Assembly (NCBI GenBank): GCA_030062745.1
Contig: CP099849.1
Span: 13,366,144-13,430,143, forward strand
Source of the DNA: Capitulum mitella
Taxonomy: Eukaryota; Arthropoda; Thecostraca; Pollicipedomorpha; Pollicipedidae
Length of the DNA stretch: 64,000 bases
Reading direction: 5' to 3'
A model generated the notes under the pieces. That model was not told where the DNA came from, ran no database searches, and worked only from the letters and a program-made list of their open reading frames with translations. Made by a program: the position numbers and the translations under genes. Shown here one piece after another: positions 1-63,225 of this stretch (positions are counted from its first letter, which is position 1; each line of letters begins with the position of its first letter).

Positions 1-640
1 CTGGGCATCAATGAGGTTGCATTCCTTGGGAGCAAATCAGTGCTGATGTAACACTTAACCTCAGATGATGCAACACTTAACCTAGTCACCTTAAAATCCA
101 ATGCAAAAAAGGATAACCTGCATCCCATCAGGAACCAAGCATATTTACATCATTTCCTGGGCAAAACATCATATGATGGATTAATGAATTGGCAAAAATA
201 TCCAAAGGGTATCAAAAGCAAAATAATGAGCACAAAATATGTGGTAGGATACATATCACCTGAAAATAATGAATGTGGAAAATATCAATGGGTAATATAT
301 TGGGCAAGGATAACTATCAAATGGGGATACTTACCAAAATGGAAAAATATCACAGGACAAAACAAAATGCAAAAGAAAGGAGAAGAAAACACTGGCCAGA
401 CCAAGAAAGAAACTGCAAAACAATGAATGATGAAATAAGGCTAAAAGACCATAAGACACAGTACGAGTCAGTGTGGAAAAAAAGGTTGCTATAGGGAAAG
501 CCATCAATTGATCAAGGGAGTACCAATCAGTCTGCCATGAGACATGATCTGTTTTCCATTATGTGCAGATATGAGTTTACCATAGAGGTTATGTTGGGTT
601 AAGTTAGGTTAAGTAATGTCATGCTCCAATGGGTTAAATC

Positions 641-670
641 AGGTCAGGTCAGGTCAGGTCAGGTCAGGTC
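641..670. repeat. (AGGTC)n short tandem repeat
   Basis: Six perfect AGGTC units lie inside a longer stretch of degenerate GGTTA and TTAGG-like words (about 590-720). Confidence 0.9.
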
Positions 671-2063
671 AAGTCAGACCAGGGTAAGTTAGGTTATGTT
701 AACTTAGGTAGGGCTAGGATTGTTTACCTTTATCTAGGGCAATCACTCATGCCATGATACCCTGAATATTTTGTCAAAAATTGGCCATCTTTGCAACAAT
801 TATGCTGCAATAATTCTCCAGTCCATTTCCAATCACTTCATCATTGGCGAAGTGGACGGGTGGCAGGGGTAATTGCCCAACAGCATAGGAAAATTCAACA
901 TTACCCCAACTATGATGCAGGAGAATGGCAAAAAATGCTGTTTTCTCCCATACATCATGATGCTGTCACTGCGGACCAGTGTGGACAACCCTGCAAAATT
1001 GGGTAGAAAATGACAGCTAACCAAAAAATACATCCATCATAAGTACACCAATAATTATGGTTGAATGTTATTCTGACAGTGAATGGCATGTGTCCAGATC
1101 CCAATGTATCATCTCACAGTGCAGGATTCAATCATAATGCACTCCTTCCCGTGATTTTCAAATCCTTCAACAGTTTTTCCATCTGCACACTGAATCAAGA
1201 ATAAATTTTTCAACACTGTAGTCACCTGCAATCTTTACTTTTGCCTTGGCCAATGAAATATTACATCTTTTCATTTTTTCTTACATTACAATACCCAGTG
1301 CATAAGGAATTTGGCCACAATGGTGCTGGCAGTCCTTGGAATCTGCAGCTCAAATCTTCTGCACAAACTCCAGTAATGCCAAATGATTAATGATGAAGAA
1401 CAAACTTTCCTGAAATACAAGGGCAACCTTCCATTCCTACCCTCTGCCCTCACTACTAACTCTGTCATTGCTGGATGTCAGACACACCTTTTAAATTGAC
1501 CTGTTATGCCACTAAACTTACACAATAACTGCTATCAGTATTTGGAGGCTTACTACAAATCATCATCAAACTGTTAGAAAATGTCTGAGTGAGGCCAAAC
1601 AAGCAAAAAAAGATTAAGAATAAGCGCTTTTGGTGAGCTTATAAAACAATGTCACTTCAGGAACATTAAGAAAATCAGTGGGTTCATTGATGCACAGGGC
1701 AGGAAACTTGGTTTTTGTTCTTGGTATCAGAGTATAATTTTTCTTTTGGAGTACAAGATTTTGCAAATGGTGATGCTGGTTTCAGCTGGCATTCTTGATG
1801 TTTAATCAGTTATGACACTATACCTGCTTCTTACTGAATGGAGACAGTCATTTGCTTGCAGACTTAAAAAATTGTCAATATGATTATAATGTAGCTTTTT
1901 GAAGGAGACACAAGGTCATACTTTCAGAGTATAAAATGTTTTGGAGCACACATTTTCTGGTGTTTTTCAACACCAAAAAACATCTTTTCCATCTATGGTG
2001 ATGCACAAGTAAAATTCAGCAAGCTGATAGTTTTGTACCTTGTTTTTTGAAGCTTAACATAAC

Positions 2064-3275
2064 TTTAATGTGCCCCTGACTGAGGGGTGGTTGACTGCCA
2101 CCCCACAGGTTTTCTGGGATTGCAGGAGAACACATAAATGCAGTGTCACAAAACTTTGTGTATCTTTTGTGTGATCATTTTTACACCTTGTATCCAATTT
2201 TTGGCCTCAGGTGTTGTAAAGTGTCTCACCTAGACCAGGTCAAGTGGATCTATGCCCAAAAAAGTTAAGCACCCTGTAACTTTTTACAAAACATGTTTCA
2301 CAAGACATTCAATGGTTAGAGGTTTTGATAAATGCAACAAAACTGTTACCTTGGACTTTTTGGAAATGTCCAGGCCATTGACCTAAAGTCAAACCAGTTT
2401 TCAACATGTCATTTTTTTAGAACTGATGGGATTTTTTAAAGCAATTTCAGTGTGGGGAGATCCAGACATCCAGTTGCTGTCACTGTGCTAAGTTTCAATG
2501 ACCTCCAACCACTGACCTGAGGTCAGGTCACTAATAACTGATATCAGTCAAAATGCACTGCATTCAAAATCAGAAATGAATGACTCAGATCCAGCTAAAA
2601 CTGGCAGAACTGGCTGAAACAGCTGCAAACAATACCAAGAAGTTCAAAAAGGTTGAATAAATTACATATTTTAGGAATAAACAGACATTCATGAAAAAAG
2701 CTTTGCCAATTGCATAGATTGGTAACCACCAAGTTTTCTAAAATTTAAACATGACAAATCATCCCAGGAACCACTAATATCAACAAACAACACTTGGGAT
2801 GGTACATTTTGCAAAAATATGACAGCACAGAAATTAGTTGCCTTTCATTTCATAACACCTCCATTTCATACCACCTCCATAGCACCTGCCTTGCAGCATT
2901 GCAAAAATCACTGTCTTCAACCTAATGCTTCTGTGTACATACTACACAAATCAGAGCAATTAGGCATGTATCAATGTCTGCAGACTTTTACCTGTTCACT
3001 AGTGCCTTTATCTAGACTTTATTAGTCAAAGCCCTTGAAATTCAGGCAGTTTCTCAGTCTCATGCATGCAGCTATGATGAAACATATCTAGCATGTGAAT
3101 GACTTACATATTATTCAAGACTAAAATTGAGACCAGTTCTGAGCTCTATTGATCAAGAGCTTTCCAACAATACATTTATGTGTATCGCACAACCAATCAT
3201 TCATGAGTTAGAGGAAGTGGTCAAATGCCTCCAGTTTAGCACCAATGGTGCCAACCCACAGTCAGGCATGGGTCA
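2064..3275 (+). mobile_element. TTAA-type non-autonomous element, family C, CpG-decayed copy
   Basis: The order of words matches the intact copy at 44278-45432: a G-rich palindromic start, 'gggattgcag..agaac', 'caggtcaagtggatcta', and a tail resembling 'gtgaccagccgttcgtgagtcagagg'. At sites where the intact copy has CG, this copy usually has TG or CA; the terminal cgcgcgttaa has become catgggtcaa. No long ORF is present. Confidence 0.7.
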
Positions 3276-3931
3276 AGAGTCACTGAACTGCCATATGACT
3301 GGATCATGGATCAAAGACTTGATAAAATAAAACCATGGTTCCAAGAATGGGAAGAACTTCCTGAGGCATTGTTTGATTGTAAATCAGGGACTTCCAACAG
3401 GAATAAAGAAAATGAGAATGGGTGCATATGTGATTAACCTACACATCTTCACCTGTAATTTTCAAAGAAGACCATTACATTTACATGCACTGTGCACCAA
3501 AAAATTACATTTATGCCTCAAAAATGTGAAATATGTGTTGAAACAAAAACATTGTGATAAAAAATCAATACAAAGAAAAATGTTTCAAAATACCTTTAAA
3601 TATATGCTACCTTTCTCACCAAGAGCTATGACAATGGAATAATCCACTGAAATGAAAGTGAATGTCACCTGGTATGCAGCAAATTATGCAGACCCAGGCA
3701 GAAAGGAACAATTTCAAGTATGAGTGGTTTTGACATGGGACAAGCTGTAGCAACATCTCCATGCTTTCCCTCATTTCAATGTCACAAAACTATGCATGAA
3801 AAGTAAAAGTCCCATTCGACAGATTTACATTTTTCGGGAACAGCATTCATAGTGACATAAAATAGCATCACCCGCAACCAGTTACCCAAATATCGACAAT
3901 CACTCTAGGGTGCGCAGTGTTTGCCTCGTAC

Positions 3932-4061
3932 CTTGGTGCACTGCGACATTACAGCCGTCCCCATCGCAGTAAACTAATGGATTTTCATCCCATCCACTTT
4001 CATCGGAGCAGACACAGCAGCCCCCAACCATTTCTTTCATGTCACCTTCGTCCTCCCCCAT
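3932..4061 (-). CDS. Alh: First coding exon of AF10/AF17 (MLLT10/MLLT6, fly Alhambra) homolog, PHD finger start
   Basis: The minus-strand reading from an ATG at 4061 gives a short acidic leader, then KEMVGGCCVCSDESGW and NPLVYCDGDGCNVAVHQ, and stops at a donor (G|gtacga) at 3932/3931. This is the first half of the first PHD finger of the AF10/AF17 family, which reads chromatin and works with the H3K79 methyltransferase DOT1L in the nucleus. Visible zinc ligands are the CCVC cysteines, the YCDGDGC cysteines and the VH histidine. The exon ends in phase 1, as needed for the family's next residue, an alanine. The rest of the gene must lie left of the window. An in-frame ATG at 4163 would add 34 residues, but an NRF1-type promoter palindrome sits inside that extension, so 4061 is preferred. 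Family assignment is strong; vertebrate MLLT10 versus MLLT6 cannot be separated. Confidence 0.85.
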
Positions 4062-4130
4062 TAGTGCACTTTCAACTCGTAGGCACCGCACGCCATCATT
4101 GTTTACAAACTCGAACCCGAACGCCGTGGC

Positions 4131-4140
4131 GCGCATGCGC
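4131..4140. promoter_or_regulatory. NRF1-type palindrome GCGCATGCGC
   Basis: A perfect match to the NRF1 core (nuclear respiratory factor 1; ewg in flies), typical of CpG-rich housekeeping and bidirectional promoters. It lies 70 bp upstream of the preferred Alh start codon. Binding is inferred. Confidence 0.5.
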
Positions 4141-4841
4141 GAGAGAGGAACTGGCTCTGCCACTGAATAGAATCCTGCGAGTTCGCTTAAATCAAGGAAT
4201 TTGGGTTCGGACTGAGATCAACTGAATTGCTTCCTTGTGTTTTTAGTAGAAAATATGTTTCCAACGACGGTGATCGGAATGTAGCAGCTATGAATCCGGG
4301 GGAATTGGCAAATCAGCGATCTTTCAATGTACGTTTTCTATGTTGTTGAGTGTATTAAGTCAGCATGGGCTCAAAATAAACCGGCTGTTTTTTGAAAACT
4401 TGTTTTTTATCCTGTTAAATGGCGGCTGAAGAGCGTTAAACTCAGCAACGAGTTAAATGCAAAACAACTCTGATAATAGAATGCAGCTATGCTAAAAATT
4501 TTACTTGTTCCAATTCATCATTCCAATTCATCCAGCTGAAGAAACGGTGTGGTACACTTAAGATATCCGGGAATCCTGCCGCTCGTGAGCCTTGTAAACG
4601 TTGCTGTACGAAACAGATGTTACTATTAAATAATATGTAGTAGTGATCAATTCACATCCAGTACATGTTACACTATAATGTTATGTGGAGACGTTGTCTA
4701 GTTTTTCTGAGACATTTTTAGGGCAATATTTCGTAAACCACGGCGCTATTCGGCGTGTCAACTCATCCAGCCTATTTCAGACTTCTCTGTTTCCATCATT
4801 TGCTTATCTTATGCACTGATTCGTCTCTTCTTGTTGTTACT

Positions 4842-4933
4842 GAGTTAGAACACACAGCCTCCTGGGCTCAGGTGTCCAGTCAGGTCAGGTCCTGTGTTCC
4901 GTTGAGCGTCAGTCAGTCGTACGTCCGTCTGTC
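4842..4933 (+). repeat. Dispersed repeat D, copy 1
   Basis: About 90 bp around GGGCTCAGGTGTCCAGT recur with roughly 80 percent identity at 51752-51842 in the same orientation. The class is unknown. Confidence 0.65.
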
Positions 4934-5159
4934 CTTTCTGCAGTTCTTCGCAACGTGGTCACATTCGTCTCATACGAGCCGTTGATCGCCGTGGCCAGTT
5001 TTCGTTGCTGTTCACACGGGGATGGGATTGCCAAAATGCTTTCTGAATGAATAAAGCTGTTCGCTGAGATCAATCAATATATATTAAGACGCATGGATTA
5101 AAGTAACTTATCATCCGATGGACAATGTAACGGCTTGAAACACCCGGCGTTGCTGCGAA

Positions 5160-5266
5160 ATTGCTCCGAAAGGAAGTGGTTTGTCTTGAGTCTTCCGCCG
5201 GAAGAGGTTAACCGATGCTCATCTTGTTCAAGGGTGCGAGGGATGTGAACAGACGATCTTACCAAG
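5160..5266 (+). other. Candidate non-coding first exon of CDK12 (donor at 5266)
   Basis: The sequence ACCAAG|gtgagtttc at 5261-5275 is a near-consensus donor at the edge of the CpG-rich block, with no long ORF running into it. A matching acceptor could be at about 8860 (cccgcacgccag), shortly before the CDK12 ATG. The exon's 5' end is not determinable, so the start given is nominal. A second weaker donor on the same strand is at 4329 (AAT|gtacgt). Confidence 0.35.
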
Positions 5267-8200
5267 GTGAGTTTCATTGCTTGTTAAACAATGGACATAT
5301 TGTGGACACCAGTAACGTGTGCATCGGTGGTGGGGAACAGGATAAGTAGCAAGGCCGCGTCGTAATTGTATTGAATGTCTGTGATGACTGACCACACAAG
5401 ATCATTTGCATGTATATGAATGTGGAAAAATAGTGGTTGGAACCTTCTAAAGGTGGCAGTGGAGTGGTGCTGCATTTGAATTTGATGTTAACAAAGTGCT
5501 AAATTATATGTCTTTTTACTTTTGTGTATGCTAAGTGAATTTAACATTAATACCAGTGCTCAAGAGCATAAATTCATTTGATGGTGTTTGCACTGTTTGC
5601 ACACAGCTATTAAAGCATCATGCTAAAGCTAACTCATACCTCCTGGTTGGGCCAGGCACTATTTGCTGGCTACATGTCCTGTGGGTCTGTTGTTAAATGG
5701 CCTGCTGGTCCACATTTATCTAATTTTATGCTGTGTGCACCAGTGCAGCCAAAGGGAGGGTGCCCTCCAGGGAGGGTGCATCCCTCCCCTTAGGCCTCCA
5801 TTGTTTGTGAAGACCATTTCACAACATATTTTCAGCAGGTTGTGTTCAAATGATCTTAATTCACCCTGGGCTCTGTCCCCCTCCCTTAAGGAAATTTTGG
5901 CCTCACCCCTAGCTGTGTGGTGGTGTGCAGCTGTGTGCTGGCCAGTGATGCATGGGTTGATGAGTTTTGGGGTTTTGTTAGGGTAGGTCAGGTTTAGCTA
6001 CAGAGGATGAATATTGTAGTGTCACTGGTTATGTTATTCCATGATATGTAGTGCTTGCCCTGGCAATGCTTGTCATGGGCTTGGACAGTGTCCCATTTTG
6101 CCAGTGTCACAGCCTATGCATGGTGCAAAATAGTAATGGGAACATCATATTAGATACCATGAAATGGTGGTGGTGCCAGATGGGCATATGCATTTGCTCA
6201 CAGTAACCATTTCTGATCTTGTCACAAACTCTTGGGAAATTCTGGCTTATTTGGCCTAATAAATCCTGGAAACTATTGTCATCTGGCATCTTCCACCAAC
6301 ACAGTCTTTGAGAAATTTCTTCTCTGGCAGAAATTTTTCCAGGTCACCAGCCCACACACTGATGGCCAGTGCACCGCTGAGTGACACCAAAGTACCATGC
6401 TGTGCCTGGGGTAAAGTTGGATGGATAGGATGGATCATGACTTATTATCACACATGTGCAGTTGTAATGGTTCAGTTAGTAATTGGCAGGTTGGTATGCA
6501 GTATTTGTGCACCCTACAGATATATCACAATACAGATGTTTTATTGGATGTTATTTGTGACAGTTTACATCACAGCCTCATAAATAATGTTGTTAGATAA
6601 AGAGTATTTTTTACAGCTACAACAGACCTGCCAACATAAAATGCCAGAAGCAGTAACAAGCCTTGTGGTTGTCTGGAACCAGTTAATGGCCACAATAAGG
6701 ATGTCACCAAATTTGGTGGCCTGTAACCCTATTCTGGGAGGGCTACACGATACGGCCGATTCCTGGCGGAGGACGAGTTTGGCCCCCCGAGATCTTGAGA
6801 ACTGCAGATCTGATTTCATCACAACCAACATCAATTGATTTGCCATGACATAAACTACATTTTGAAAAAGAAGCTTTCATAATTTTGAAAGGTGTGGATA
6901 CATGGGGGCAAAAATGGCAAAATGGTAGTATTTTTGAACTTCTAACTCCATTGTTTATGCACCGATTTTGATGAAATTGACATCAATCAAGAAATTATTA
7001 ATGGGACTTCTACCACTGGTGCACATATTTAAAATTTTGCAAAATTTGTAGGTGTTCACAGGGTTTCAAAAATAGGAGGACTAGTTTTTCAATAACTGAA
7101 TGGACGAAAAAGATAAAAGCACTCTTTTGGCTTCTGCTAGTCATGTTATGTTAAAGAAGTGCAAATCGCATTACAATGTTTGTATAATGTTAGCATGAGT
7201 GGTGCCAGGGACATGAAAAAGGGGTAACTGCCATGCTCATATGCTCCTCAGATTAACCTGTAACCTTTGACTTTAAATGACCTCCAGTGAGCTTGGAGTC
7301 ACTTGGAATGATATTGTGTGCATTTCATATCTGAAAATGTTTTTAATCATTTGAATTCACTCTGTTTCAAAAATTCAGTTTTACAGCTATTGTGGTGTGG
7401 GGTGCGCTCACTGACATTTTAGGTTATAGCTCTGTGACCCGATCTGATATGAAACTGAAACTTGATAAACAAGTCGAGGACACCCTTCTACGTGATATAT
7501 ATTTCGGGTTTGATATTTGAAGTAAAAAATAGCGCCATAATTGTTACTATAAAACCAAAATTTTGACTTTTGACCTTGACCTGACCTGGTAAAGTGACCT
7601 CTGATGAACGACATTGTATTTGTACGTCGCACCGCTATTTAGCTATACATCCATATAAGATTTTATCTTTTGTCTTAAAAATGCTATTTTTGGCAGTCTT
7701 TTTCCTTTTACCCTCAACAAGGCCAAAAATGGCGTGAGGTGCCTCCTAAAAACGTTGCCTGACTCCGCCCCTGAGCAAAAAAGGATTCCGAAATTCTGTC
7801 GCAGTACAAAGAAAGAATAGCTAGGAAAAGCGACCAAATTTTGTAAGACTGCGTCAAAAAGCCTGGAATTGGCGAGCAAAAAAACCGGAAGGGGGCGGAT
7901 TCAGCCCCCTTGCCGGGAATAGGGTTAACCCTGTTTCATGCTGGGGGGCAGACTCTGACCCTCCTGTTTTTTGGTCACCAATTCTAGGCTTTTTGGAGCC
8001 ATTTCACAAAACTGACTTTTCCAAAATATGTTTCTCACACATATGAGAAACACATGCGAAAAATGTTTAAATGTTATGAAAAATTTCAAAAATGGAAAAT
8101 GAAAAAGGATAAATCTTCTGTGAAAAACTTCAAAAATTTTCCTCCTCCAGAGACATTGCCAGGAGACATTTTTGGAAGGCATGTTTGATGAATATGTTTT

Positions 8201-8860
8201 CTGAAGATCATACACTTTATCATGGTGATATGCCATTTTGATATCCTTTATAGTGTCACAGGCATTTCATACAACCAGAATGTTTTCTTTTGTGTGGAAG
8301 CACTTTTAGTCGTCTTGATATGATCGGTTTATCTGTAGAGGACGAAAGCCAAGACATCTAAGCGAAACGCGTGAGACCCTGACTTTGACCTTTTGGGTCA
8401 CCTGGAAGGTGAACAGTACAAGATAGATGCATACATCCCAGACGTATTTAAATTGGAGGGACGTGGGCTACATACTGGTGAAAACCGCGTCTCTACGTGA
8501 TTTGGTTCGCGAGTTAGTGTTTGGGGGTCAAAGTGACCCCCCGGAATAAGCTTGGTAGAAAAAGTCCCAACTTTTTACGGGTTAGTGTCTTCAATTCAAT
8601 TTGCAGCGAAGCATGTTTGCATGTAGTTTTGCTTGTTCACCAATTTGTGGACACGAAAATATGTCGAAATTTGTTGTTCTTGTCACAGTCATAGAGCTGC
8701 TTCCACTTGCGTTGTTGATTTTCGGGACTTACCATCGTTAGCTGGTAGCGCGTTCTTTCCGTCGCAGCATGGGTATGCCTGTGTACGATGTGGCCGCGTA
8801 ATTGCATTGTGATGTCTGGGCAGGCGACCTTCAGCACCAGCTGTGACGGTCCATCTCCCG
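5267..8860 (+). other. Putative first intron of CDK12
   Basis: No coding exon is seen. From about 5400 to 6720 it is CpG-poor unassigned DNA. A piggyBac-like element follows (6727-7924), then about 600 bp (7929-8550) that starts CCCTGTTTC directly after the shared TTAA and ends in a GGGGGTCA..TGACCCCC stem, possibly a second, degenerate element of the same type. Confidence 0.4.
6727..7924 (+). mobile_element. PiggyBac-like non-autonomous element (family B), full-length copy
   Basis: The left end CCCTATTCTGGGAGGG and the right end CCGGGAATAGGG are inverted copies of each other. TTAA follows the right end (7925-7928) and GTAA precedes the left end, a one-base-decayed TTAA. CCCT ends at TTAA targets are the piggyBac hallmark. 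The 1.2 kb interior has no transposase. Two further copies start at 39141 and 50297. The first half of this copy has lost most CpG sites relative to the 39 kb copy. Confidence 0.7.
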
Positions 8861-8916
8861 CACGCCAGCTGGCCTCCGTCATGCGGCAGCCAACGTAGCC
8901 TGTCCGTGGCGAGAGT

Positions 8917-36505
<27,589 letters not shown>

Positions 36506-41157: not shown

Positions 41158-43219
41158 TCAGTTTATGGACGAACCGGCATGATGCGTACCGTTCTGTCGG
41201 CAGAAGTCACAGACAAAGCCCGCGCCCGAGTTTCCCTGTGAACAAGCCTCGTGACACCATTTTTCGCAACGTGTGCACTGTAACCAAAGCTCATGTTTTC
41301 CAATGACGCCTTCTCCACAGAAACTGCAGGTGTCACTACTCTCAATCCTTCCCGCTCTGACTTTTCTTCCGAATTTCTTTGCTCTTTCCTGTGTTTTGCA
41401 TTGCCTTTTGGCCGGTTTTGCTTTTGACTTGTTCTGTTTTTCTTCGAGCTTCCGCTTCGTAGGTGCACTGGTAAGTATCGCTGACTTCTGATATTTCGCC
41501 CTTCGCTTGATCTCCTTTGGGGACGGAGCTGGCAGTTTCAGAATATCTGACAACTTGCGCTTCCCATTGTCATCTTTCCTCTCTCCGCATTGGTCCAAAA
41601 GCATCTGGGTTGTCGTAACAACTATCGCTTCATCTTGTTCTATCACTCCTTTCTCATAATCGTCGTCATCTTCGCCTACTGAGGCAACATTATAGTTGTT
41701 CTCATCGCCAACCTCCGACACATCATCGACGCTGCCAGAAGGCCGGCCGGAGCGTCCGTCTGCTGGTTCCACGACTGGCTGGCCGGAGCGTCCGTCTGCT
41801 GGTTCCACGACTGGCTGGCCGGGGCGTCTGCCTGCTGGTTCCACGACTGGCTGGCCGGAGCGTCCGTCTGCTGGTTCCACGACTGGTTGGCCGGGGCGTC
41901 TGCCTGCTGGTTCCATGACTGGCTGGCCGGAGCGTCCGCCTGCTGCTTTCACGGTCGGCTGGCCAGAGTGTCTACCTACTGCTCCTTCGGCATCACTGGC
42001 GTCTTCATCTTCGATGAAAACGTATTCTGCGCCCTGGACGCCGAACTTATCGGTGACGTTCGGAGCGTCATAGTCGGCGTCACTGGTGACCTCGGCGGTG
42101 TCCATTGGCGGAGCTCGATCCGCCAGGACATGTGACGCCGCGACGAAGTCTTCTGGAGTGAATACCTTCGGGTTCATTGGAACGATGCTTGCTGCTCCGA
42201 AACCGTTAGCGGCTTTCTCGGCCCAAGCGGTACGCAAGTAAGCTTTGCCAAAAAGTGCACCCACGTCGTGCAAGGTTATTCTTTGACCTGGCTTCTTCTT
42301 CAAGAAGCTGCGCACTTCCTCCTTGTGCCAGGTCTTTAGTGGACCGTACACCGAGAGGTCAATGGCTTGGGTCATGTGCGAGGTGTGCGGAGGTATTGTC
42401 AGCATGTCGACCCCATGGTCCTCACAGACATTCAAGGCCTCCATGGGTACATGACTTGCGTGGCTGTCTAGGATTAAGATTGTCCTGTTCTCCTTGGATG
42501 GTCCAGTTTCCTTCGAAAAGTGCCTCAGCCACTCCACGAAGATCTCGTGGGTGACCCATCAATCTCCAGTGGTTGCCTAGATGGTGCCAGGGGGTGTGCA
42601 TCGCTTGAAGGACTCTGCAACTCTCTTTCGAGCAAAGATCAGTTGCGGGGGTATGAAAGAATCAGCTGCATTGCAACACACGGCCGTCGTATTTTGGCCC
42701 CTCTCAGTGCTCTTGACGACCCCGACTTGCCGCAAACATCTCCCTGCAACGGCTTTCTGTGTAGGCATCATAGTCGGAATGGCTGTCTCATCGACATTAT
42801 AGATCCTGGATGGAGTATAATGCTTATCCATCAGGATCTTCAGGTTGCTGAAGAACAACCTCACTTCAGACTCCCTGAAGGCGGCCAGCCTTGCGATGCT
42901 GGTCGCCTCTGGAGAACGTATTGCAAGATTGGGGTGCCGTGCCAGAAATCTTTGCAGCCAGTCTGTTCCGGCCATGAGCTAGGACGTATGAGAAAGATGA
43001 TCAAGCTGCATGTGTTCCGCAACATCATATGCCATCTTTCTGAGTTCAACTTTCATCACACCATAGATGTTCGGCATTTTCAGAATGTATGACCCTAACG
43101 CTTTTTGGTACACAGGAGGAAAGACAGGTATTCTCCTCCTTTTTCGGGGAGCGAATGGAGTTCCCCTCGAGTTCCTCACTCGGTAAGAGGCCTGGTCTCG
43201 AAGGGTGGTTCGTGGGATA
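41158..43219 (-). pseudogene. Pogo/Tigger-like DDE transposase with C-terminal PHD-like zinc finger, broken by three stops
   Basis: One minus-strand frame runs from an acceptor (cctatccacag) at 43220 to a stop at 41158. It starts IPRTTLRDQ, the second half of a Pipsqueak-type HTH, then a CENP-B-like domain (AGTDWLQRFLARHPNLAIRS) and a DDE nuclease: IYNVDETAIP, LILDSHASH and AIDLSVYGPLKTW keep all three acidic residues. A Lys-rich linker holds a 36-bp repeat array, and the end is CSFCGEGV..CTRCEKWCHEACS..CDFC, a C4HC3 zinc finger. Stops: TAG 42981-42979, TAG 42579-42577 and TGA 42561-42559, the last where homologs have GW in 'sGWmT.E.F'. Arthropods carry many such genes, often annotated 'clz9-like'. 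The upstream exon with the first HTH half was not found. Recently dead, or sequence errors. Confidence 0.85.
41731..41985. repeat. 36-bp minisatellite inside the transposase linker
   Basis: About 6.5 tandem 36-bp units, in frame as a 12-residue motif (GQPVVEPADGRS alternating with GQPVVEPAGRRP). Two unit types alternate, suggesting 72-bp higher-order expansion. The last units are more diverged. Confidence 0.93.
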
Positions 43220-53719: not shown

Positions 53720-55116
53720 CAGGCTCCACTGCGCGGTTTTCCAATTTTCTGCTTCGATTTTGCGATTTTTCATCTCAGTTTTGCGCTTTTCCGTCACCGG
53801 AAAATGTCAGATCCATAGGAATACACGGGGCCGGCTCCACTACGCAACACCGAGATGGAAAAACGCAAATTCAGGACGAGAAATCGTAAAAACGAATTGA
53901 AAACGCGGAAACTCGAAACGAAAAAATGAACAATCGAAAAACGAGAAATCGCAACAATGTTGAAGTATTTAAACTTTATTGCGGTTTTCCATCACAATCG
54001 TGTTGGTCGCTTTGTGATTTATCATTCCCAAGATACCTTCACTTTGTGCTGATTTTGAGGACAGGAGCGCGGATGCCAAGTTTAGCGGGCCTTGGCGTTA
54101 AGCATTTAGGGTTTGTAGGCTGGCTTGTTCTGCGGAGATGGAGGAAGGACAAGTACCGGGACAGGAGGGAGCCACTGGAATGGAGGAAAGTTGTGGTAAG
54201 CTCGAGAGACATGTTGATCATAGCAGTGATGGTAGCTACATGTGTGTATTCACTATTCAGGGACCTTGGCACCTCTTATTTGCATGCGTGCTTTCCTATG
54301 ATGGAAACATACACATCACGGACAGACAACACTTGCAGGAAGTCAGGCACAATGACAGATCCAGGGGGGGGGGGAACAAGGCCACCAAGATGGGCAAAGG
54401 AAAGTTTGTCTTAAAACAGTCTGGAAGGTGAAATGGAGCAAAACCCAACAAGTTTTGGAAACCAGTACACGTTTTTGGGATTGCCCCCCCCCCCCAACCA
54501 CCATAAACCAATATTTTAGGTCCACCCCTAATTCACACATGGATAATTCTGTTATGACTAGACTACCCAGCTCCTGTCTAGGATGATATTGCCATTCCTC
54601 TTGCTGCACATCCAACCTGCGGCAGGCGTGTCAGTGAGATGTAGGTATGGGGTGCCCTCAAACCCGTCCCAGATCGGGCAGAGGCAGTGTTGGAAAAAAT
54701 GTCGTTTTCTTGTGTCAAGGAGCACCAAGAAATTTATACTCCAAGAAAAATTTTGCACTCCAAAATGATCAATGCCCCCAAACCCCACCAAAAGACAATT
54801 GGTATTCCTACTCAATCAGAGTTTGAAGTTGCCCAGCCCCTCCCCCCCGGTTCATGGTTTGCTATCCATGCTCGGCTGCTGAAGTACACTCCGAAAACAC
54901 ACGGCCAGCCACCTTCCCCCGATTAACAACTCTGCTGACCTACCACGTAGACTCAGGAAACTGGTTTGCCCCGCACCCCAACGGAGCTGCTGGATCCGTC
55001 CCTGCTTGCCACATATGCTTGTAAAGCACCTAGTTAGTCCATGTTTCTCACATGAATGCATAACATTTTATACTCCAATGCATCCATCTTTATATCTTCT
55101 GCATATATACATACAT

Positions 55117-58930: not shown

Positions 58931-59439
58931 GTGGCAACCGTCCCGGCGCCAACGGCGGCGTGCCCCGGCCACGCCTGGTCCGGCGCAGGCAGCCCTCCGG
59001 TCGGCTGACTGCGCGACAGGCGCTGGCGCCCGAGGTCTGTCACGTTATCGGCAAGCGCCAGGCCTCCGTCAAGCCGGGCCGCCGCCGGCCGGCCGCTGAG
59101 AGTCGAGTGACGGCGGCCGGGGGGAAGGGGCGTGGCGCCAGGGCCAAGGCGCTCACGACGACCAGTAGCATAAGCCACAGCAGAAAGCAAAACAGGATGT
59201 GACCTTGCTCAGTTCAGTACTGGCTGAGTCCCCACACTGCAATGCCACAGGCGCCACGCCAGGCAGACATAGTGGTCGGAGGAGACGAAGAAGCTGGAGC
59301 CGAGTGTCTATGCGACCAAGAACAGAGTCTCACACCATACAGCACACATCACGCCCTTCACACAGGTGGCCCGGAGCACCGGCACTGCATCCCTGCAGCA
59401 GGACATTCTGCACTCGGGGCCCAGCACACAGGTAAATGA

Positions 59440-60830
59440 GACAACTTTCTGGCATCAAAGCCAAATCATTTATGCTATCTCACTAATATCTGATGACTTT
59501 TCATGTGTATTCCTTCTACACATTCTTGACAACTCAAAAACTCTACATGAATAGGACTGGTTCCAGGGGACATTTCTGAAAGGCATGTCAGGCTATTCTG
59601 CAGATGTTTTAGATGTGTGTTGGATCATTTAAATATTGGTGCTGTAAGACAATATTTTGCCATGCTATGACCATACAAAAAAATGTTTGGAGACTGCCAT
59701 GGGCAGATACAGGGAACATTGCAGAGGCATGCTGAAAACATGATGTAAAGTTTCTTATCCATTAACAGATTCAGTGATGCATCATGCCATAGACCATGCA
59801 CTGACTGACATTACTTTCATTACAGTTTGACCATTGTTTGTATTATGACTCCAACTTTCATGCTAGTGAAAATGTGCATACTTTATTACATGACACTAAA
59901 ACAGAATAGCCACATGTTCAGATTTCACTTCAGAACACATTCATCAGCATCATATATTTCTACATGTATTGACAGGTGTTGATCCAGTAATGAAATGAAG
60001 GGGACAAATGACCTAATACAAACTATGGACTAGTTTTATGATCTACCACAGACACATCCAGAATGCTACAATAACCACAAATTTCAGTGTCCTGGGCCCA
60101 TCAGTGGTATTTCTAATAAGTAGCATGTGTTGATTACCCAACTCAAAACTATAACTTTTCCAAGATTTTCCAACTCCAAAGTGAAAACTGGTTGGATGCC
60201 ACACTAACTCCTTGGAAAAAAATTGGAAGGTTTTTGCATGCCAGCTGCCAGGGAAAGTGATAAAACAAAATCTTACTTATTATTCTGGTTATAAACTTAA
60301 ACTCCAAGCATGGCACAAAATTCACATTTTCATGGAGTCACCCAACATCATGGCTAAGCTTCTGCATAATGCAAACTCAATTCAGCCCACATATTTTATC
60401 CACTTTGCAAACATTTTAAGTGAAGCAAGACTGTTCCAGGTGAAACCAATCACTACAGACTTCTAATTCAAAACTGGAAAGTGATATTTACTACAATTTT
60501 CATAGTGTATCCAAATAATGTACCAAACATACCCACATTTGCCACAACAGACTAACAGACTACAGGAAATAGTCTTCAGTATTTTATGACTTGCACATCA
60601 CAAAAGTGCAGCATTAAAAAACTGAGTGCTTAACCAGCTTTTAGGTCACTTTCCTTATGCAGTGTCCACAGGCACAATAAATGTCCAATTTTCAGGCTAC
60701 TGGGGATGCCAATACACCCTTGGAATATACATTGCACCAAAGTACAGGCAATATCACACACTGCTGTCTCTTTAAGACCAGTTTTGCTGTCTAAGACCAG
60801 TTTTGCTGTAAGATCAGTTTTCCTGCACAA
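59440..60830 (-). other. CpG-depleted stretch downstream of a candidate minus-strand promoter
   Basis: AT-rich, with almost no CG dinucleotides and no coding exon. It lies just downstream (minus orientation) of the CpG-rich block with YY1 and CRE motifs at 60.9-61.1 kb, mirroring the arrangement at 1-3.8 kb. Read as a possible first intron. Confidence 0.35.
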
Positions 60831-60984
60831 AAAAAAAATGAGAATGCGCAGATTTCAAAAACGCACAAATGCAGTGCGGAATGCAAACAAACTTCCCTAC
60901 AAAATGGAAAAATGGCTACACTACCCGGATCGTTTCCGAAGAAAATTGACCTATATTGCACCGTCAATAACCTTGACAGGGTCT

Positions 60985-61090
60985 CATGCCGCCATCTTGC
61001 CGACACTAACTCACGGCCCTCTGCAGGAGGTATCGTCACCAAGCGATTTATTTACACTCTGAACAAGCCGCTGTGTGACGTCACTGGGAG
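60985..61090 (-). promoter_or_regulatory. Candidate promoter: YY1-type motif and CRE
   Basis: GCAAGATGGCGGC on the minus strand (61000-60988) is the YY1-type downstream promoter element, here pointing to leftward transcription. TGACGTCA at 61077-61084 is a perfect CRE about 80 bp upstream. The surrounding 250 bp are CpG-rich. A second GCCGCCATCTTGCG lies at about 62226-62239. Confidence 0.4.
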
Positions 61091-61788: not shown

Positions 61789-62445
61789 ACCTCCCCCTAG
61801 GACGTGGTGGAGGAGACCAACCCACATTTCCGATCATAAACACCACCGCAACCAGAACAAAGCAACAGCCAATAACAATGCAGCCACCCCCACGAAACCT
61901 GCTCGGCCTGACTACTTCTCTGCTGCCTTACCTTTCACACGTAACGATACACTGGCTCGGACCAGTCAACCCACAGTTTCTGCGGCCGCTGGCGTCCTCG
62001 CAGCCCGAGTTCAGTCCGCAGCCCGCCTCGCGGGCAACACTGCCGGAGCTCTAGCGCCCATGCGGTCGCTGTCACACGCAACGCCGGAGACGCGAAGGCC
62101 ACCGCAGTCGCCGTATTCAACGTCGTCAGGGCCGTTGTCACGGCTGTCATCGCCCTTAATGCTGCCGTCGCCGCCGTGGCGGTCGCCGGAGCCGAGGTAG
62201 CAGCCTCACCGTTGTCTCAATCTCTGCCGCCATCTTGCGAAACCGTCACGAACGGTCACGGGGCCGGAGATACCGGCTGTTGCGCCAGTATATGAGCTCG
62301 CTCGGCATACGTACCAGGCCATTGCGTCGCCAGCCAACGTCCACGACGGTCCCCGACCGGTCCCACAGACTTAACTTGGAGTCCTGCATCAGGACGTGCT
62401 GTCCATAACAGAGAAGCCGAAGTGGGCGGGCGCACATGTGGTTAC
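61789..62445 (-). mobile_element. Ty3/Gypsy-type LTR retrotransposon remnant: pol tail, polypurine tract, LTR start
   Basis: The minus strand encodes GQHVLMQDSKLSLWDRSGTV, then MPSELIYWRNSRYLRP, the C-terminal domain after the integrase of arthropod Gypsy-like elements. After a stop, a second frame ends in RPQKLWVDWSEPVYRYV (to 61935). A polypurine tract GGGGGAGG (61797-61790) follows, and TGTTGTGTA at 61789 looks like the LTR start. The rest of pol is absent to the right; the LTR 3' end was not located. Confidence 0.55.
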
Positions 62446-63225
62446 AAATGTAGTTACAACCGTCCGAGACGAGATACATGTAGTTACATGTACAAAACTA
62501 CACCTTGTTACTACGTGTTGTTGTATTTACAATTTTCAATGGCATTTTTTGCATGATAATGGCATACATCAATTAACTGCCCACTGCCTTATGATACCTG
62601 TAATGCAGGCTGCAACCAGCTTCACACCTTTCGTATTAAATCTGTCTGGCATGTCAATGGCAGCTGCGCAGTCCACATGTCATTACTCACAATACAACCA
62701 CACAAAGTAACATGAAAACAGGACAGGTGGTATGGAAGGAGGCAACACTCAGGAATCACACCGCACCTTCCATGCTTTACTGTTTTTTTTCTTTAAATTA
62801 AGCATACTTCATAAAACGTGTCATCTCCCGCAAGGACAAATCAACTAGATATTGCTTGTAATTACAATTAATTCACTTCATATTCACAAATCTAGCATTC
62901 CATCATACAGGTATGGTAAAATACTGTGTACAATCAATATTGAGACAAGTGACCCTCCAATGATTTATATAAAACATAAGTAAAAGAAGAAACTGGTAAA
63001 AGAACATCATGCACAACACAACCAACAAAAAGTAAACCAGCCAGACATGTTTATTACTTGGTGTCATGAGCACTGTGGTCTTTGCTGGTGAGCGGGGCCG
63101 TCCTGCCGTCGCAACGTGTGCAAACCCGAACTTAGGCAAAGCCGTTCGGGTTGTTATAAAATGCCACAAAAACATAACATCGGCAGGTAATGGTATGTCA
63201 TAAAGCAGCACTCAAATCATGCCTG
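62446..63225. other. Unassigned, CpG-poor DNA
   Basis: AT-rich with few CG from about 62500 to 63060; no conserved ORF. Confidence 0.5.

Follow-up and report, generated by a model that had tools for sequence, protein, structure and literature searches.

A CpG-depletion footprint on both sides of the putative Alh/AF10-CDK12 promoter region of Capitulum mitella, consistent with germline methylation

The ratio of observed to expected CpG dinucleotides (CpG O/E) is a standard proxy for germline methylation, as in the Strigamia genome (PMC4244043), and the recovery of CpG at promoters is established in the locust (PMC8011201). Here we describe a 64,000-base stretch of DNA from the thecostracan Capitulum mitella (assembly GCA_030062745.1, contig CP099849.1, positions 13,366,144 to 13,430,143; hereafter the window), in which two blocks almost free of CpG flank a CpG-normal stretch of 1.5 kb between two divergent genes, Alh/AF10 and CDK12. 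The locus is like the mosaic gene-body methylation of invertebrates in that CpG-specific loss, together with gain of TG and CA, is found in what appears to be a transcribed unit beside a putative CpG-normal promoter (PMC4244043, PMC8011201). Close to it also is the spider Stegodyphus dumicola, in which introns are methylated about as much as exons and elements within genes resemble the gene around them in methylation state (PMC6409797). The Stegodyphus genes were scored as wholes, whereas the depletion described here lies mainly in the opening 1.4-2 kb of the first intron in CDK12 and covers at least 3.8 kb in Alh.

We consider it probable (roughly 0.87), from the features of the sequence set out below, that both blocks are scars of long-lasting germline CpG methylation over the promoter-proximal part of two divergent transcription units. 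Such methylation, laid over the beginning of both genes, would have raised the rate of C-to-T change at CpG, since a methylated C deaminates to T and a CG would then become TG or CA, depending on the strand. Elements inserted within the methylated zone would have lost CG at the same raised rate, whereas most copies outside it did not, and the CpG-normal 1.5 kb would be the unmethylated promoter region common to both genes. In this scheme 5-methylcytosine, present in the germline, would be the cause of the loss, and transcription would set the borders.

Distribution of CpG in the window

The window has a GC content of 0.48 and a CpG O/E of 0.93. CpG-normal and CpG-depleted segments were delimited using a two-state model with settings of our own choosing; the expected number of CpG was taken from the product of the C and G counts, and probabilities are given as Poisson log10 p. 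Block 1 (1-3813) contains 7 CpG against 136.4 expected (O/E 0.05, log10 p -48) and block 2 (5379-6746) a single CpG against 63.3 (O/E 0.02, log10 p -25.7). Between them, 3814-5378 holds 80 CpG (O/E 1.02), and the remaining segments lying between depleted ones have values of 0.90-1.09. The loss in both blocks is confined to CpG: GpC, with counts of 145 and 73, shows no depletion relative to the CpG expectations, and TpG and CpA are raised (O/E 1.53-1.74). The surpluses amount to 110 TG and 132 CA in block 1 and to 57 TG and 49 CA in block 2, and such similar gains on the two strands fit symmetrical CpG methylation, not a strand-biased process. A strand-biased, transcription-linked loss of C without methylation, for example through deamination of exposed single-stranded DNA near promoters, would suit the position of the blocks just downstream of two putative promoters. 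The excess of change, however, belongs to CG sites and is of similar size for the two strands, not only in these surpluses but also in the family C element copy of block 1 (15 TG and 20 CA replacements), and the remaining C/G positions of these element copies are altered much less often; we regard this explanation as very improbable.

The limits of the blocks are sharp on the promoter side. On the Alh side the CpG-normal stretch has its outermost CpG at 3817, which puts the border 115 bp beyond the first splice donor at 3932; on the CDK12 side it is at 5361, or 95 bp beyond the predicted first donor at 5266. On the right, a single CpG between 5361 and 6748 is followed by six at 6748-6788 and by three more up to 7404; block 2 fades inside an element of family B, and 7869-8880 has an O/E of 0.78. 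An earlier note on this DNA had called 1-3810 and about 5400-7400 almost free of CG, which is right for 1-3813 and 5379-6746; a clean right edge at 7400 is contradicted by the return of CpG at 6748-6788 and the fade within B. The same note took 3815-5350 to be CG-rich, but with an O/E of 1.02 and a GC content of 0.45 this middle stretch is merely normal. The geometry that it proposed, with Alh and CDK12 flanking a promoter, holds, AF10 running leftward and CDK12 rightward.

Element copies inside and outside the blocks

Self-comparison of the window revealed three copies of family B (B1 to B3), four of family C and one pair of a repeat D. The element tests, made on pairwise alignments, used copies within the window only and treated sites as independent; a second alignment setting shifted only the B2-B3 results, and these slightly. 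Since the same elements lie inside and outside the zone, whose borders are placed to about 100 bp, the stretch carries its own controls and its methylation history should be readable from the sequence alone.

The strongest contrast is provided by family C. At the 52 CpG of copy C3 that could be compared with the block 1 copy C1 (aligned part 2126-3170), C1 has kept none; 36 were changed by transition and 16 otherwise, as against 66 transitions at 309 other C/G sites (p=2.6e-11). Against C4 it has kept 1 of 20, with 14 transitions (other sites 21/93, p=8.5e-5), and when the changes were polarised with a third copy, 1 of 28 shared CpG was kept, 20 having been lost by transition and 7 by other changes (other sites 17/89, p=6.4e-7). 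The reverse comparisons offered 0 or 1 usable CpG and are uninformative. At C1 sites that are CG, TG or CA, 1 CpG in 21 survives, and the changed fraction of other C/G sites is 0.19; by our estimate the per-base rate of CpG change in block 1 is raised roughly seven-fold, and since hardly any CpG are left to lose, this figure is a minimum. C3 and C4, which both lie outside the blocks and are about 70% identical, show no such excess: C4 retains 28 of 40 CpG of C3 (transitions 4/40, or 0.10, vs 23/130, or 0.18; p=0.33) and C3 retains 28 of 38 of C4 (7/38, or 0.18, vs 18/134, or 0.13; p=0.44). That the blocks were CpG-poor by origin or through base composition might be supposed from their GC content (0.38-0.43, below the 0.49 of 7401-64000). 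O/E adjusts for composition, however, GpC is normal, and the in-block copies have lost CpG that copies elsewhere kept; we think this explanation very improbable.

In repeat D, the copy in block 1 has kept none of 8 CpG of its partner, with 6/8 lost by transition against 24/99 at other C/G sites (p=0.0058). In B1 the decay is graded. Relative to B2 it keeps 13 of 42 CpG over the whole element, and in the 5' half past the tip 2 of 17, with transitions at 15/17 CpG vs 27/159 other sites (p=4.8e-9); the reverse direction over this half has only 3 CpG, of which 2 are kept. Polarised with the third copy, B1 keeps 5 of 14 CpG and shows 9 transitions (other sites 24/177, p=5.3e-5), the losses being 7/8 before 7400 and 2/6 after it. 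B2, polarised likewise, keeps 5 of 6 and has lost 1/6 by transition, and B3 keeps 5 of 10 (3 transitions, 2 other changes), with no significant excess in either. Between B2 and B3, CpG transitions of 13/33 and 14/38 (0.39 and 0.37) compare with 87/333 and 83/328 (0.26 and 0.25) at other sites (p=0.11 and 0.17). Within the zone, then, elements show more transitions at CpG than at other sites, and outside it they do not, the exceptions being a C copy at 19340 and the B1 to B2 comparison, both considered below.

These results bear out the earlier note where it had read TG or CA in the family C copy, and in the first half of the family B copy, at positions that are CG in their partners; the 20-base example it quoted from B is present in the alignment. 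The excess of CpG loss over other transitions that it looked for is found in C1 and the B1 5' half, and no significant excess in C3-C4 or B2-B3. Its position for element B (6727-7924) was correct to within a few bases, the limits being those of Table 1. An imperfect palindrome occupies 7839-8011 at the 3' end of this element, adjoining a second B-like end (TAACCCTGTT).

A methylation or other repeat-silencing mark aimed at the inserted elements might have spread to neighbouring DNA, transcription being incidental. The C, D and B copies do lie within the blocks, and element-directed methylation is described in cnidarians (PMC8857917). Nevertheless C3, C4, B2 and B3, outside the blocks, have no significant CpG excess among themselves; 3276-3813 and 5379-6723 are equally depleted and have no repeat match of at least 80 bases in the window (they could hold elements that are single-copy here); and each border is close to a first splice donor, the two donors flanking a single putative promoter region. 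We therefore think such a spread unlikely. Genome-wide methylation that was later lost was also considered and is rejected, since B and C copies lying beyond the blocks, although diverged, retain many CpG.

Genes, extent of the depletion and other features

The first gene was recognized from a minus-strand frame (3903-4217) matching the PHD domain of AF-10 in PDB (E 4.7e-18); Pfam gave only a PHD match below threshold. Its first donor, CACCAAG/GTACG, follows base 3932 on the minus strand. No second Alh exon was recognized by eye among the listed frames of at least 40 amino acids in the window, and Alh exons 2-4 are accordingly outside the exon comparison. The plus-strand frame 17789-18049 has CDK12 as its best PDB match (E 1.3e-23), with CDK13 next at 3.4e-23, and 25488-25841 contains a kinase domain (Pfam, E 2.3e-20). 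From these matches Alh/AF10 runs leftward and CDK12 rightward. The frame 8899-9837 had no Pfam match; where it lies, together with its charged and RS-rich appearance, leads us to take it as the start of CDK12. From the splice consensus, CDK12 would have a non-coding first exon with its donor after 5266, and 3814-5361 would be a promoter region common to both genes, transcription likewise being read from sequence. A scan for tRNAs (bacterial settings) found none in the window, and no Rfam family reached its gathering score.

The first coding exon of Alh has an O/E of 0.88 and five kinase-domain exons have 0.67-1.05 (their limits are approximate); the early coding exons compared are not CpG-depleted, which is not the pattern of exon-targeted 5' methylation. 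Later parts of CDK12 have values of 0.90-1.06, except for 22322-24151 (0.27) and a simple repeat, and the intron at 18.7-25.4 kb, taken over its full length, has 0.78. Within the CDK12 intron sequence at 21336-24151 a GC- and CpG-rich patch (approximately 21.4-22.1 kb) precedes the partly depleted 22322-24151; this is a possible internal promoter.

Several observations weigh against germline methylation as the origin of the blocks, or narrow it. The CDK12 first coding exon has an O/E of 1.33, and block 2 spans only some 1.4-2 kb of a gene that occupies at least 16 kb of the window (8917 to approximately 25.6 kb). In most arthropods sampled methylation is biased to exons (PMC7343188). In the C copy at 19340, which lies in an intron further along CDK12, transitions removed 6 of 10 CpG (other sites 18/108, p=0.0047); some loss therefore extends beyond the blocks, and the rest of the gene is not fully distinct from them; B1 to B2, a control direction, gives a weak excess over the whole element (7/24 vs 47/376, p=0.03). 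Lastly, six CpG survive within 41 bases inside the depleted zone (6748-6788); placing the 10 CpG of 5379-7400 at random 20,000 times never produced such a cluster. Local shielding by a bound factor, or conversion at a later time, can be offered as guesses. With the first coding exon and most of the later CDK12 body undepleted, the scar is mainly in the promoter-proximal intron 1, so that the description "germline-methylated 5' gene bodies", by which the earlier note had gone, is supported as a reading and too wide in its extent.

A narrower proposal is tentative, and we would rather doubt it on a basis of one locus, or two if the block at 59416-60846 is counted. Germline methylation in this lineage may be concentrated in a short intron 1 zone that begins roughly one nucleosome beyond the first donor and, in CDK12, dies away over 1.4-2 kb, leaving coding exons untouched; promoter distance or the chromatin of the first intron would then determine it, not exons or the whole gene body. 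Should this donor-anchored layout prove general in the lineage, models in which promoter distance directs methylation would become distinguishable from those based on exons or whole genes.

Depletion is not peculiar to the promoter flanks. Zero CpG are found in 59416-60846 (model segment 59383-60828, O/E 0.02), and 22322-24151 and 54210-54847 (O/E 0.23) are partly depleted; 15471-15664, also with zero CpG, is within a CT/GA simple repeat. An exact AAGATGGCGGC, which we take to be a motif typical of YY1-type housekeeping promoters, is present at 60988-60998 on the minus strand. With up to one mismatch there are 3 matches vs 1.1 expected (8 of 100 shuffles reached 3), and the hint of a promoter at 60.9 kb is thus only suggestive. 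A donor-like CAG/GTAAAT is near the left edge of 59416-60846. A Pfam scan of individual open frames covered ten, of which seven lie at 58.8-62.2 kb, one lies at 48.4-49.3 kb and two belong to CDK12, and its 2 matches, both below the curated cut-offs, are in the CDK12 frames; no gene is therefore assigned near 59-62 kb from the seven frames there. A second exact AAGATGGCGGC (62226-62236, minus strand) is in a CpG-dense stretch with a CpG-poor one (62515-63092, 5 CpG) to its right. Elsewhere, 41161-42978 on the minus strand carries frames that we read as Tigger/pogo-like transposase; for the frame 41161-42558, 11 of 11 relatives carry PF03184, and a repeat with a 72-bp shift (41741-41981) lies inside a transposase-like frame.

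Table 1. Positions of the CpG segments, element copies and putative gene parts in the window
Feature	Position	Strand	Remarks
CpG-depleted block 1	1..3813	-	7 CpG, O/E 0.05; taken as entirely within Alh/AF10 intron 1; extends beyond left window end
Repeat D, copy D1	1702..2003		0 CpG
Family C, copy C1	2064..3275	+	1 CpG; in block 1
CpG-normal stretch	3814..5361		O/E 1.02 for 3814-5378; putative shared promoter region, Alh leftward and CDK12 rightward
Open frame with first coding exon of Alh/AF10 (start of N-terminal PHD finger)	3932..4217	-	AF-10 PDB match; donor after base 3932
Predicted end of non-coding first CDK12 exon	5200..5266	+	donor AAG/GTGAGT after 5266; start coordinate arbitrary
CpG-depleted block 2	5362..6747	+	sole CpG (6375) between CpG at 5361 and 6748; taken as start of CDK12 intron 1
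Element B, copy B1	6724..7927 (about)	+	11-bp inverted terminal repeat; CpG decay strong in 5' half, fading towards 3' end
Six surviving CpG at 5' tip of element B	6748..6788		41 bases
Frame taken as CDK12 first coding exon	8917..9837 (frame from 8899)	+	upstream of kinase exons; charged, RS-rich look
CDK12 kinase-domain exon (matched part)	17873..18040	+	PDB CDK12, E 1.3e-23
Repeat D, partner D2	18677-18980		9 CpG
Family C, copy C3, partner of C1	44274-45437		72 CpG
Further depleted block	59416..60846		zero CpG over 1.43 kb; exact AAGATGGCGGC (minus strand) 141 bp from its right edge

Comparison with other methylated genomes

Studies of CpG O/E in invertebrates, in the portions accessible, score it per gene, in 1-kb windows or as promoter averages, whereas the present locus has borders placed to about 100 bp and O/E values of 0.02-0.05. 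A search of the literature, which covered few subscription journals, found no description of a germline footprint limited to the first intron. A bias to the gene start, as proposed here, is stated for Hymenoptera (PMC5111047), and in Daphnia methylation peaks at exons 2-4 (PMC6097596); in both it is aimed at exons, whereas the loss described here falls in intron 1 and leaves the putative first CDK12 coding exon intact. Methylation of introns, as proposed for this locus, is present in a termite (PMC5111047) and in a hard tick (PMC12128260), but in the termite it rises towards the 3' end and in the tick it peaks near the gene end, unlike the pattern in CDK12. The donor-anchored layout in intron 1 matches none of the systems compared exactly, as far as the accessible parts of these papers describe them, and the locus would be a further example of the already known CpG footprint of germline methylation.

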